A DNA stretch of 64,000 nucleotides. Origin: an uncultured bacterium. Its GTDB lineage: Bacteria; Verrucomicrobiota; Verrucomicrobiia; Verrucomicrobiales; Akkermansiaceae. Under the pieces are notes generated by a model. It saw only the letters and a program-made list of their open reading frames with translations. It was not told where the DNA came from and searched no databases. Both the position numbers and the translations under genes were made by a program. Where the stretch lies: assembly GCA_945831585.1 (NCBI GenBank), contig CAMACY010000002.1:1-64000 (forward strand). The letters run 5' to 3'. This document shows positions 11,285 to 50,455 of the stretch, piece after piece; the first letter of the stretch is position 1, and each line of letters begins with the position of its first letter.

Positions 11285-12801
11285 TTACCTGTACTGCCAT
11301 CGCCGGCACGGCCGAATGGGTGTGCTGCCCCGGCGCGGCCACGGCGCCGCTTTGCCGCAGCCTGAGCCTTTGCCCCGTGGTGCACCGCTGGGCGGTGAGC
11401 GATGCCGCGACCGCCGCCTTCTTTGCCCTCGGGCGCGCGCAAGCCACGGCGCGCCCCGTGGCCGTGGTCGCCGGCAGCGTGAGCGATGCCGCCGCCATGC
11501 TCCCCGCCGTTACCGCGGCCTACTACCAGCGACGCCCTCTGCTGGTGCTGAGCTTCGGCGAGGCTGCGGACGGCGGCGGCACCGGAACGCCCGGTGCCGA
11601 GGAAGCCGAGGGGCTCTTCGGGGGCTTTGCGCCCACCACCGTGCTGCAGTTGCCCTGCGCTGTCAGCGATTTGCCGCCCCTGAGCGAAATGCTGGCCGAC
11701 GGCTTCCCTCTGCATGTGCATGTGCGCTCGACCGGGGAGGATGAGGCGCGCGGCGAGCTCAGCCTGCTGGAGGTGGCGGAGGCACCCGCCCCGCCGCCCT
11801 TCCGCGGCTCGCTGGTGGCGCTCTCGCAGATGCTGCGCTTCCGCGCGGCGGAGGGGCTGGTGCTCATGCTGGGTGCGCTGGAGCCCGGCGAGCAGGAGGC
11901 TGTCCTGTGGCTGGCGCAGACCCTGCGCGTGCCCGTGATGGCGGATGCTACCAGCGGTCTGCGCGAGGAACTGGCTCCCTACCTGCTGCACGGTGGCGAC
12001 AAGCTGCTGCGCCGCTGCCCGCCCCGCTATGTGCTGCGGCTGGGCGAGGTGCCCGCTCACCCCTTCTGGCGCACGCTGGAGCAGCTGCCAGGCACGGAGG
12101 TGTTTTCCGTCACCCGCACCGGCTTTGCCGGGCTCAAGCGTCGGAGCACCGTCATTGAAGGCGACCCGGAGCAAGTGATGAAAGCCCTGGGCGATGTGCC
12201 CCATGTGGGCGACACCGAGCGGCTGCTGCCCGCCGCCCGCCGCGAGGCGGCGCGCGTGGAAGAGGCTCTGCTGGCCGAGCCCGAATCGGCGGCGGCGCTC
12301 GTGCGCGCCTTCTCCGGCTACGCCGCCGGGGCAGATGTCATCTGCCTCGGCAGCCCCACCGTGCGCGACCTGTGGAACAACTGCGCGCAGCTGCGCGTGC
12401 CCACCCTCTACGTGCGCGACGTGGCCGAGCGCGGGAGCGAGGGTGCGTTTGCCGCCTTTCTGGGCAATGCGGCTGATGCCGGTTTTGCCTGCTGCCTCAT
12501 CGGCGATTTGGCGCTGCTGCGCAGCGCGCTGGGGCTCTGCGAGCTCCTGCATGAGCTGCCCGCCGGGCGGCGCATCATCGCCGTGCTCAACAACGGCGGT
12601 GCCGGAGCAGCGCAGGACTGCTGCGAACCCGGCAGCGAGTGCGAGCGACTCCTCGTGCAGCCCCCGCGCCTGCAGCCTGCCGATGTGGCGAGGCTCTGGG
12701 GAGCGGAATATGTGCTCGTGCAAAGCGAGGGAGACCTCGACCTGCTCGACGGCATGGGGCAGGCGCCGCTTGTGCTTGTTGAGCTCCGTCCCCTGTCCTG
12801 A
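11272..12801 (+). CDS. MenD-like ThDP-fold protein, probably degenerate
   Basis: MenD-like layout with PGAATAPL, AAFFALGRAQ, IGDLALLRSALGL, IIAVLNNGGAG; active-site motifs altered. Confidence 0.7.
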   Translation: MHTLITCTAIAGTAEWVCCPGAATAPLCRSLSLCPVVHRWAVSDAATAAFFALGRAQATARPVAVVAGSVSDAAAMLPAVTAAYYQRRPLLVLSFGEAADGGGTGTPGAEEAEGLFGGFAPTTVLQLPCAVSDLPPLSEMLADGFPLHVHVRSTGEDEARGELSLLEVAEAPAPPPFRGSLVALSQMLRFRAAEGLVLMLGALEPGEQEAVLWLAQTLRVPVMADATSGLREELAPYLLHGGDKLLRRCPPRYVLRLGEVPAHPFWRTLEQLPGTEVFSVTRTGFAGLKRRSTVIEGDPEQVMKALGDVPHVGDTERLLPAARREAARVEEALLAEPESAAALVRAFSGYAAGADVICLGSPTVRDLWNNCAQLRVPTLYVRDVAERGSEGAFAAFLGNAADAGFACCLIGDLALLRSALGLCELLHELPAGRRIIAVLNNGGAGAAQDCCEPGSECERLLVQPPRLQPADVARLWGAEYVLVQSEGDLDLLDGMGQAPLVLVELRPLS

Positions 12802-47714: not shown

Positions 47715-47743
47715 ATTCTACACTTTCGCTGACGGGTTGGCAA
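47715..47743 (-). promoter_or_regulatory. promoter TTGCCA-N17-TAGAAT for phosphofructokinase
   Basis: Minus-strand hexamers, about 41 nt before ATG (leadered). Confidence 0.65.
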
Positions 47744-47791: not shown

Positions 47792-49174
47792 TCAAGGCAC
47801 AATGCCGAGCGGAGTCGTGTGCTTCCAGTCGCCACGCGTGAAATCCGGGAAGAGTTGGGGCATTCCTCCCTCGTGCACGGATTTCTCGGAGAGCGGGGCA
47901 ATAGCCGACCACAGAGCGCCCTCGTAGACGTTCTGATCGAGCGCCTCGCCCCGGTGCAAGCATTCGATGATGCGGGCGAAGAGCAGGTAGTTCATGCCTC
48001 CCCGCTTGTCGAGAGCAATGGCGCGAGCTCCCAGGCGACGGTAGAGGGGGTGATCCCAGCGCGCGTGCATCTCGGCCTCCGCCTCGGCGCCGCACCACCA
48101 GGGATGAAGGTCGCGGTTGTATCCGTCTGCGGGATGGGGATTGACCGGGGTTGCTTCCCCGAGAAAATCGCCTGCCATCCGCGTCGGAAAGCCGGCCAGG
48201 GTGCCGCGCGTGCCTTGGATGAGGTTTTTGCGGTCGTAGGGGCGCGGGCTGGTTTCATCCCACTGCACCATGATGGTGCGACCGAGACGGGTGCGGATGA
48301 TGGAGGTGTTGATGTCGGCACAGTCGAAGCGCGTTCCCTGCAAGGGGTGATTGTCCGACAGCTCCGCGCGGGCAAACAGTTCGCGCCCGCGCGCCGGGCT
48401 GCCGAGTGAGACGATGCGTTCGAAGGTGTCCTCCCCGCGGGCGATGCTCATATATTGGGCGATGGGACCTACGCCGTGTGTGGGATAAAGGTTGCCGTTG
48501 CGAGCCGCGAAATGCCCGCTGCGCCAGTCATGCTCCGCGAGCATCTGATGCCTCAGTTCGTGGATATAGGCGGCCTCGCCGTGCAGAAGCTCGCCGATGA
48601 GCCCCTGACGCACCATGTTGAGGAACATGAGCTCATCGCGACCATAGTTGACATTTTCGAGCATCATGCAATGCCGCTGGGTGCGCTCGGCGGCATCGAC
48701 CACCTGCCACAGCCCGTCCAGCGTGGTCGCCAAGGGGACTTCAACGAGTGCGTGGGCGCCATGTTCCATGACGGCAATCGCCATGGAGGCGTGCTGCTCC
48801 CATGCTGTGTTGATCATCACGGCGTCGGGGCGCAACTCACGGAGCATCCGCAGGTAGGCATCCGCATCGCCGCAGAAGAGCGCGGGGCGGGTGCCGCAGA
48901 GAGCTTCCACCTGGGATGCCGCTGCGGTCGCCGCCTCGGCGTTCAGGTCGCAGAGACCCACAATGTCGGCATGGGGAATCTGCGCCAAAAGCTCGATTTG
49001 AGACATGCTGCGTTCCCCGATGCCGATGATGGCCAGATGGACGTCGGCCAGCGCCGGAGCGCGGAAACCACCCATGTAGACCGACCCCACGGGGCGCGGT
49101 CGCGCGGTGTCCGTGGGGCCGGGGGCTGTGTTGCGAGTATGAATGAGCTCGGCAATGGGGATCGCCCGAGACAT
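47792..49174 (-). CDS. Gfo/Idh/MocA-fold protein, GH109-like (alpha-N-acetylgalactosaminidase family)
   Basis: VHLAIIGIGERSMSQIELLAQIPHADIVGLCDLN, VEVPLATTLDGLWQVVDAAER, C-terminal VHEGGMPQLFPDFTRGDWK. Confidence 0.78.
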   Translation of the reverse strand: MSRAIPIAELIHTRNTAPGPTDTARPRPVGSVYMGGFRAPALADVHLAIIGIGERSMSQIELLAQIPHADIVGLCDLNAEAATAAASQVEALCGTRPALFCGDADAYLRMLRELRPDAVMINTAWEQHASMAIAVMEHGAHALVEVPLATTLDGLWQVVDAAERTQRHCMMLENVNYGRDELMFLNMVRQGLIGELLHGEAAYIHELRHQMLAEHDWRSGHFAARNGNLYPTHGVGPIAQYMSIARGEDTFERIVSLGSPARGRELFARAELSDNHPLQGTRFDCADINTSIIRTRLGRTIMVQWDETSPRPYDRKNLIQGTRGTLAGFPTRMAGDFLGEATPVNPHPADGYNRDLHPWWCGAEAEAEMHARWDHPLYRRLGARAIALDKRGGMNYLLFARIIECLHRGEALDQNVYEGALWSAIAPLSEKSVHEGGMPQLFPDFTRGDWKHTTPLGIVP

Positions 49175-49178
49175 GGGG

Positions 49179-49278
49179 TCAGTCGACGATGCCGAGCGGC
49201 TCGGTGGTTTTCCAATCGCCGCGGGTGAAGTCGGGGAAGATCTGGGGTGCGCCGCCCTCATGCACGGATTTTTCGGCT
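49179..49278 (-). pseudogene. 3' remnant of a second GH109-like gene
   Basis: AEKSVHEGGAPQIFPDFTRGDWKTTEPLGIVD, near-identical to the C-terminus of the intact gene starting 4 nt downstream. Confidence 0.8.
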
Positions 49279-49418
49279 AGCAGCAGATGTCGCACGGAGT
49301 GTGCAACATTCGCTCGTGCTAAGTATAGCACATAGAGTATCCGCGTCAAGCGAAAAGACGGGGGGTGCCTTTTCGGTGCGTTGATTGTTGAGGCAATGCG
49401 GATGCGACTCTCTTTTTC

Positions 49419-49447
49419 TTGCATTGGCGTTGCTTCTCTGCTAGAGT
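49419..49447 (+). promoter_or_regulatory. promoter TTGCAT-N17-TAGAGT, 6 nt before ATG
   Basis: TTGCATTGGCGTTGCTTCTCTGCTAGAGTAGTTGCATG. Confidence 0.65.
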
Positions 49448-49453
49448 AGTTGC

Positions 49454-50455
49454 ATGAAAGGCTTGACCTACTTACTGTTGGGAGCCGCTCTGCTGGGCGC
49501 GGTGCCGCGGGTTTCGGCTGTGGCCGGGGGCGATGATTACTGGGCTCCGGAGCGCATGGCGGCGCGTGAGTGTCCGAGCGTGCATTTGAAATATCTTCCG
49601 AGCGTGGAGAGCGATGCTTGTTATCAGGAGATGACGGTGGAGGCGAGTGCGCCGGGCACCTACTTCGCCTGCAACAATTTTTCCTGCGGCTACATCGGGA
49701 TTCAGCAGTTGCCCTTGTGGTATCCCGACGGGCGCCCCGTGCGCGTGGCCATCTTTTCGGTGTGGGATGCCGCTTCCAGCGGCGATGACCCCCACGCTGC
49801 GCCCGAGAGCGAGCGCGCGCTGTTGGTGCAGCGCGGCGAGGGGGTGGAGACGGAGCGCTTCGGCGGCGAGGGCACGGGCGGTAAGTCCATGCGCCTGTTC
49901 GATTGGAAGGAGGGCGAGGCCGTGCGGACGCTGGTGATTGAGAAGGCCGACGGACCGGATTTCCGCCGCTTGGCGGGCTACCTGTTCAACCCCGAGACGC
50001 AGCGCTGGGAGCTGATGAGCTGCTGGCGCATTCAGGCGCTGCGCCGCGGGCTGGGCGATTGCTGCGGCTTCGTGGAGGATTTTGCCCGCAACGGTGAATC
50101 CCGCTTCCACGAGCGTCGCGCGACCTACGGCCCCGTGTGGCGGCACACGCCGCAGGGCTGGTCGCTCGCCACGGAGTTTGCGGCGTCTAAAAACCAGAAT
50201 CCCAACACGAACGTCAACTTCCGCTTCAATGCCAAACTGGGCTGGTTCTCGATGGCGACCGGCGGCGCGATTGCCGAGGAGCCGGCCTTCCGTGTGGGCA
50301 TGCGCCGTGAGTTGCCTGTCATGCACAAGGTGTTGCCCCCCGGGGAGGACGTGACGGCGCTCATCGAGGCTCCGCTCATGCCCCTGTTGCAGCAGCCGCG
50401 CTTCCGCGACCCGCGCCGCGAGCAGATGCTGCCCAAGCCGCCCGCTGCGTCCTGA
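49454..50455 (+). CDS. secreted DUF3472-like protein
   Basis: Signal peptide; YFACNNFSCGYIGIQQLP ... VAIFSVWDAA. Confidence 0.65.
   Translation: MKGLTYLLLGAALLGAVPRVSAVAGGDDYWAPERMAARECPSVHLKYLPSVESDACYQEMTVEASAPGTYFACNNFSCGYIGIQQLPLWYPDGRPVRVAIFSVWDAASSGDDPHAAPESERALLVQRGEGVETERFGGEGTGGKSMRLFDWKEGEAVRTLVIEKADGPDFRRLAGYLFNPETQRWELMSCWRIQALRRGLGDCCGFVEDFARNGESRFHERRATYGPVWRHTPQGWSLATEFAASKNQNPNTNVNFRFNAKLGWFSMATGGAIAEEPAFRVGMRRELPVMHKVLPPGEDVTALIEAPLMPLLQQPRFRDPRREQMLPKPPAAS

Follow-up and report, generated by a model that had tools for sequence, protein, structure and literature searches.

Akkermansia muciniphila carries two GH109 enzymes which are 66% identical to each other (PMC11790493), and of the GH109 alpha-N-acetylgalactosaminidases of this genus (Amuc_0017, Amuc_0920; PDB entry 6t2b), 6t2b is matched, almost from end to end, by the product of B, the intact GH109 gene of the locus described here. 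The locus lies in a 64-kb stretch of DNA (the window) from the genome of a gut Akkermansia species, and differs from the A. muciniphila situation in that the second GH109 copy is represented by a stump of 33 codons only (Table 1). The B protein features the Pfam domains Glyco_hydro_109_C (E 2.3e-47) and GFO_IDH_MocA (Rossmann; E 9.5e-14), both passing the curated cut-offs, and matches 6t2b (GH109 protein 2) from residue 23 to residue 459 with an E value of 1.5e-152, and 2ixa with an E value of 9.5e-65. By these similarities B is a GH109-family protein, with a putative NAD-dependent alpha-N-acetylgalactosaminidase activity. B lacks the signal peptide which exported GH109 copies in other Akkermansia genomes carry.

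Table 1. Features of the GH109 locus, in window coordinates
Feature	Position	Strand	Basis
-35 box TTGACG	49344..49349	-	consensus scan
-10 box TATACT (16-nt spacer, TG before the box)	49322..49327	-	consensus scan
10-codon ORF starting with ATG, MLHTPCDICC	49277..49309	-	direct sequence reading
38-aa ORF starting with GTG, running in frame through the relic	49179..49295	-	direct sequence reading
Relic (last 33 codons and stop of the lost GH109 gene)	49179..49280	-	homology to B
Intact GH109 gene B, no signal peptide, 460 aa	47792..49174	-	similarity to Pfam, PDB and G071 entries

Read on the minus strand, residues 49280-49179 encode LAEKSVHEGGAPQIFPDFTRGDWKTTEPLGIVD, followed by a TGA stop. 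The stop codon (49181-49179) is separated by 4 nt (49178-49175) from the ATG of B at 49174. In a whole-genome search the encoded peptide matched residues 428-459 of the intact protein with 84% amino acid identity (E 2.8e-12), a similarity far above the chance level, and one confined to 33 codons of an intact GH109. The initial annotation had read codons 49179-49278 as a GH109-like C-terminus ending 4 nt before the intact ATG; likeness, location and spacing are borne out, and the far end shifts to 49280 when the first aligned codon is counted. At the DNA level the relic shares 71 out of 99 nt (72%) with the 3' end of the adjacent B gene. Of about 60 GH109 genes compared, the one most similar to it is the copy devoid of a signal peptide in the G019 genome (82/99 nt, or 83%, and 28/33 amino acids). 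The body of the lost gene was not found elsewhere in its own genome, which is 97% complete: GH109 searches return only B, the relic, and a distant relative (34%) on contig C3. A reciprocal rearrangement which moved the gene body elsewhere is rejected, as the searches find no other fragment in the genome. As in truncated pseudogenes of bacteria, a fragment with neither a start of its own nor a complete domain sits beside an intact paralogue, and the relic shows nothing distinctive when compared to them.

GH109 sequences were monitored in 76 Akkermansia genomes. The nearest relative examined is G019, in which PFK is 96% identical at the amino acid level and the nuo region 85% identical at the nucleotide level (vs. 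82-83% in G071, G076 and G001). GH109-like matches at E 1e-60 or better are found in 68 of the 76 genomes, many of which host only a distant relative (32-36%). Intact pairs of adjacent, co-directional GH109 genes are present in ten genomes (G001, G016, G019, G020, G076, G080, G082, G084, G085, and G086). In the G019, G001 and G076 pairs a gene encoding an exported protein precedes a gene of the no-signal type, and 31-61 nt separate the end of one alignment from the start of the other. The two GH109 genes are about 1.3-1.4 kb apart in G071 and G077, and are divergently oriented in G072 and G073. The tandem pairs of G019, G001, G076 and other genomes match the arrangement proposed here for the ancestor, two adjoining co-directional GH109 genes, but at the locus under study the upstream gene is reduced to its last 33 codons. 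The relatives' pairs reside at other sites and join other combinations of lineages: an intact GH109 pair was found at the same chromosomal site in no relative examined, so that the comparison with relatives proposed in the initial annotation confirms tandem pairs in the genus, yet not at this position. Every match to the relic in other Akkermansia genomes belongs to an open frame of 430 aa or more. Conservation of the tail as an ORF in its own right, the finding which had been expected to speak against truncation, was sought in the 76 genomes, and not found. Intact pairs in ten genomes and the lack of stand-alone tails make the origin of the relic from an upstream tandem copy well supported.

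In the protein tree most exported copies (signal peptide, C-terminus mostly PLPVV-like) lie apart from the no-signal copies (C-terminus mostly PLGIV). No-signal copies of G019, G001, G076, G003, and G072 make up a group of their own with full support (A), and B pairs with the G071 copy (81% amino acid and 79% nucleotide identity). A and B lineages, two no-signal genes, are found side by side in no relative examined. The no-signal group includes window residues 47792-49174 and the loci L031, L032, L036, L194, L202 and L219, and its members adjoin exported GH109 genes in several genomes. If no-signal GH109 proteins do reside in the cytosol, they would act on GalNAc-containing sugars taken up by the cell. 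The two GH109 proteins encoded in G077 (L199, residues 8619-10010 and 11341-12732) are at essentially zero tree distance, and their genes enclose a gene on the opposite strand, AraC-like by eye; judged from the sequences, this pair is a very recent duplication, or the outcome of gene conversion.

The identity of the lost gene was approached by trying the relic at each branch of the GH109 tree in turn. The best placement is on the G019 A branch, as sister to the no-signal copy. Joining it to B costs 9.1 log units (AU p = 0.019), and joining it to the exported gene of G019 costs 14.4 (AU p 1.5e-4). With the exported copy of G039 as sister the AU p is 0.19, so that on 33 codons a link to some other exported copies is still conceivable. 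A relic of the G019-type exported GH109, the upstream gene in G019, G001 and G076, is rejected by the comparison with the G019 exported copy. In a leave-one-out control, the corresponding 99 nt were cut from known genes and re-placed on the tree. Pieces of exported genes (G019, G076, G071, G001) fall about 25 or more log units away from both no-signal branches, A and B. Those taken from A or B genes often fail to go to the correct one of these two lineages, and the piece cut from B itself is not firmly placed with its true sister. On these placements, derivation of the relic from a no-signal GH109 paralogue is reasonably safe; assignment of the lost gene to lineage A is made with moderate confidence, because a fragment of 33 codons cannot reliably separate A from B. 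DNA divergence alone makes it safe to say that the relic is not a recent copy of B; it probably stems from a paralogue distinct from B. The initial annotation had pictured a tandem GH109 pair from which most of the first gene was deleted. The 3' remnant of a co-directional upstream GH109 gene stands, but not the close duplication of the two genes, in view of the greater similarity to the G019 no-signal copy than to B and of the AU value, which comes from a test of low power. Relic and G019 copy differ at 17 nt, 13 of which are third positions, and the amino acid changes are 5, vs. 11.5 expected without constraint (P 1e-4). As most differences are synonymous, the copy would have remained a working gene during most of the period after the split, and lost its body late, which points to a recent truncation.

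The relic is probably what a deletion left of an upstream tandem GH109 gene, hereafter A. In the ancestor A, probably of the no-signal type as in G019, would have been located directly upstream of B, in the same direction, and the deletion would have taken away everything between the vicinity of a promoter and the 33 codons that are left. Most simply, B would now be transcribed from the promoter at 49349-49322, via a leader of roughly 140 nt carrying the dead tail; transcripts starting near 49315 would cross the relic to enter B, and the relic would most likely be part of a leader either untranslated or uselessly translated. This is gene decay of an ordinary kind, in a family whose members often occur in tandem, and it documents turnover in the mucin-degrading GH109 family of gut Akkermansia, with tandem copies gained and lost. 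The host species has no detectable exported GH109 copy, and keeps one no-signal gene and one distant relative; by the sequence comparisons, it has lost one no-signal GH109 paralogue. The main use of the result is the correct annotation of the region upstream of the surviving GH109 gene.

The sequence TTGACG-N16-TATACT, anticipated upstream of the tail in the initial annotation, is confirmed on the minus strand at 49349-49322, and matches the sigma-70-like consensus at 10 of 12 positions. It is the sole promoter-like site found by the consensus scan in the interval 49150-49500, in which shuffled sequence gives 0.1, and sites with at least 10/12 matches are rare (12 in 64 kb). The transcription start had been set at about 49340, a position which falls between the two boxes; the predicted start is near 49315, about 7 nt past the -10 box. 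PFK, located downstream of B, has a promoter-like site of its own at 47743. An ATG is found at 49309, about 6 nt past the predicted start site, and its 10-codon frame ends at the relic, out of frame, which is what a deletion junction might look like. This ATG is possibly the start codon which the lost gene used before the deletion. Leaderless transcription start sites account for 10% in A. muciniphila, according to experimental data (PMC4782308). Ownership of the promoter by the lost gene would fit both the location of the ATG just after the predicted start and the very short or absent leaders which sequences suggest for the genus. Yet the promoter region, taken as the sequence from the relic to the DUF3472 gene, has no match (E 0.05) in the upstream regions of GH109 and DUF3472 genes retrieved from relatives, and the notion that the lost gene owned the promoter is not supported.

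The lack of homologues of the promoter region upstream of the relatives' GH109 genes would be in line also with a rearrangement taking the place of the in-place deletion, in which A was broken within its 3' end while gene order was being shuffled, or B arrived, by insertion or acquisition, beside an already broken A. The promoter would then belong to the new neighbourhood, and not to A. The PFK-GH109-DUF3472 neighbourhood is unique to this genome among the relatives examined, the neighbours of the GH109 pair in G019 are scattered over different contigs of the genome under study, and B is probably of another GH109 lineage than the tail. We regard the rearrangement as unlikely all the same: the distance of 4 nt from the stop of the relic to the start of B looks operon-like, as in tandem pairs; no 5' part of A turns up elsewhere, so that loss is required anyway; and the 79% nucleotide identity of B to the G071 copy falls inside the 68-87% range observed for other genes of these two genomes, so that no transfer of B has to be invoked.

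It is improbable that the tail now serves as a translated leader, the GTG-initiated ORF of Table 1 being coupled to the translation of B. The frame stays open from its GTG at 49295, a short way past the predicted transcription start, the 4 nt from stop to start suit coupling, and no Shine-Dalgarno sequence precedes the ATG of B; but none is seen before the GTG either, the tail stands alone in none of the 76 genomes, and the synonymous bias is accounted for by the time spent within an intact gene. Very doubtful is the stricter form of this reading, according to which the stump is kept as a leader ORF or 5' leader setting the translation of the downstream GH109 by termination-reinitiation; if true, the 3' end of a dead paralogue would have been reused as a control element. 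A partial tandem duplication, by which B gave rise to a second copy of its own final 33 codons in front of itself, would suit a fragment of the same family, limited to the C-terminus and immediately adjoining B, but is highly improbable, as the tail diverges more from B (28%) than from the G019 copy (17%) at the DNA level, mostly synonymous differences are unexpected in a dead copy, and placement as sister to B is rejected.

Gene order is shuffled nearly gene by gene among Akkermansia species, as seen by comparing L031 of G019 to the genome under study. The same shuffling is observed when residues 42000-62000 of the window are compared to G019, G071, G076, and G001, conserved proteins being still about 90% identical. 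In DUF3472 genes a -10-like box precedes the ATG by about 6-10 nt, both in the window (49418-49456, plus strand) and at L203, L204 and L206, which suggests that DUF3472 mRNAs may be leaderless in the host genome and its relatives.

A repeated motif, TTCGGTGCGTTNATTNTTGAGGCA, is located at 49372-49395 on the plus strand of the window. Further copies, either exact or with 2 mismatches, reside on contigs C17 (10551-10574, L244), C5 (42082-42105, L246), C9 (138-161, L247) and C2 (4571-4594, L245) of the same genome; the reversed pattern, searched as a control, gave 0 matches. Rfam searches on four copies returned no match to the motif; the hits were a tRNA located in a flank and others below threshold. 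On C17 a second similar copy directly follows the first, and about 75 bp are common to the copies on C5 and C9. At three places the motif lies just upstream of a promoter-like site and a gene start, and it is possibly a regulatory site or a small repeat element.
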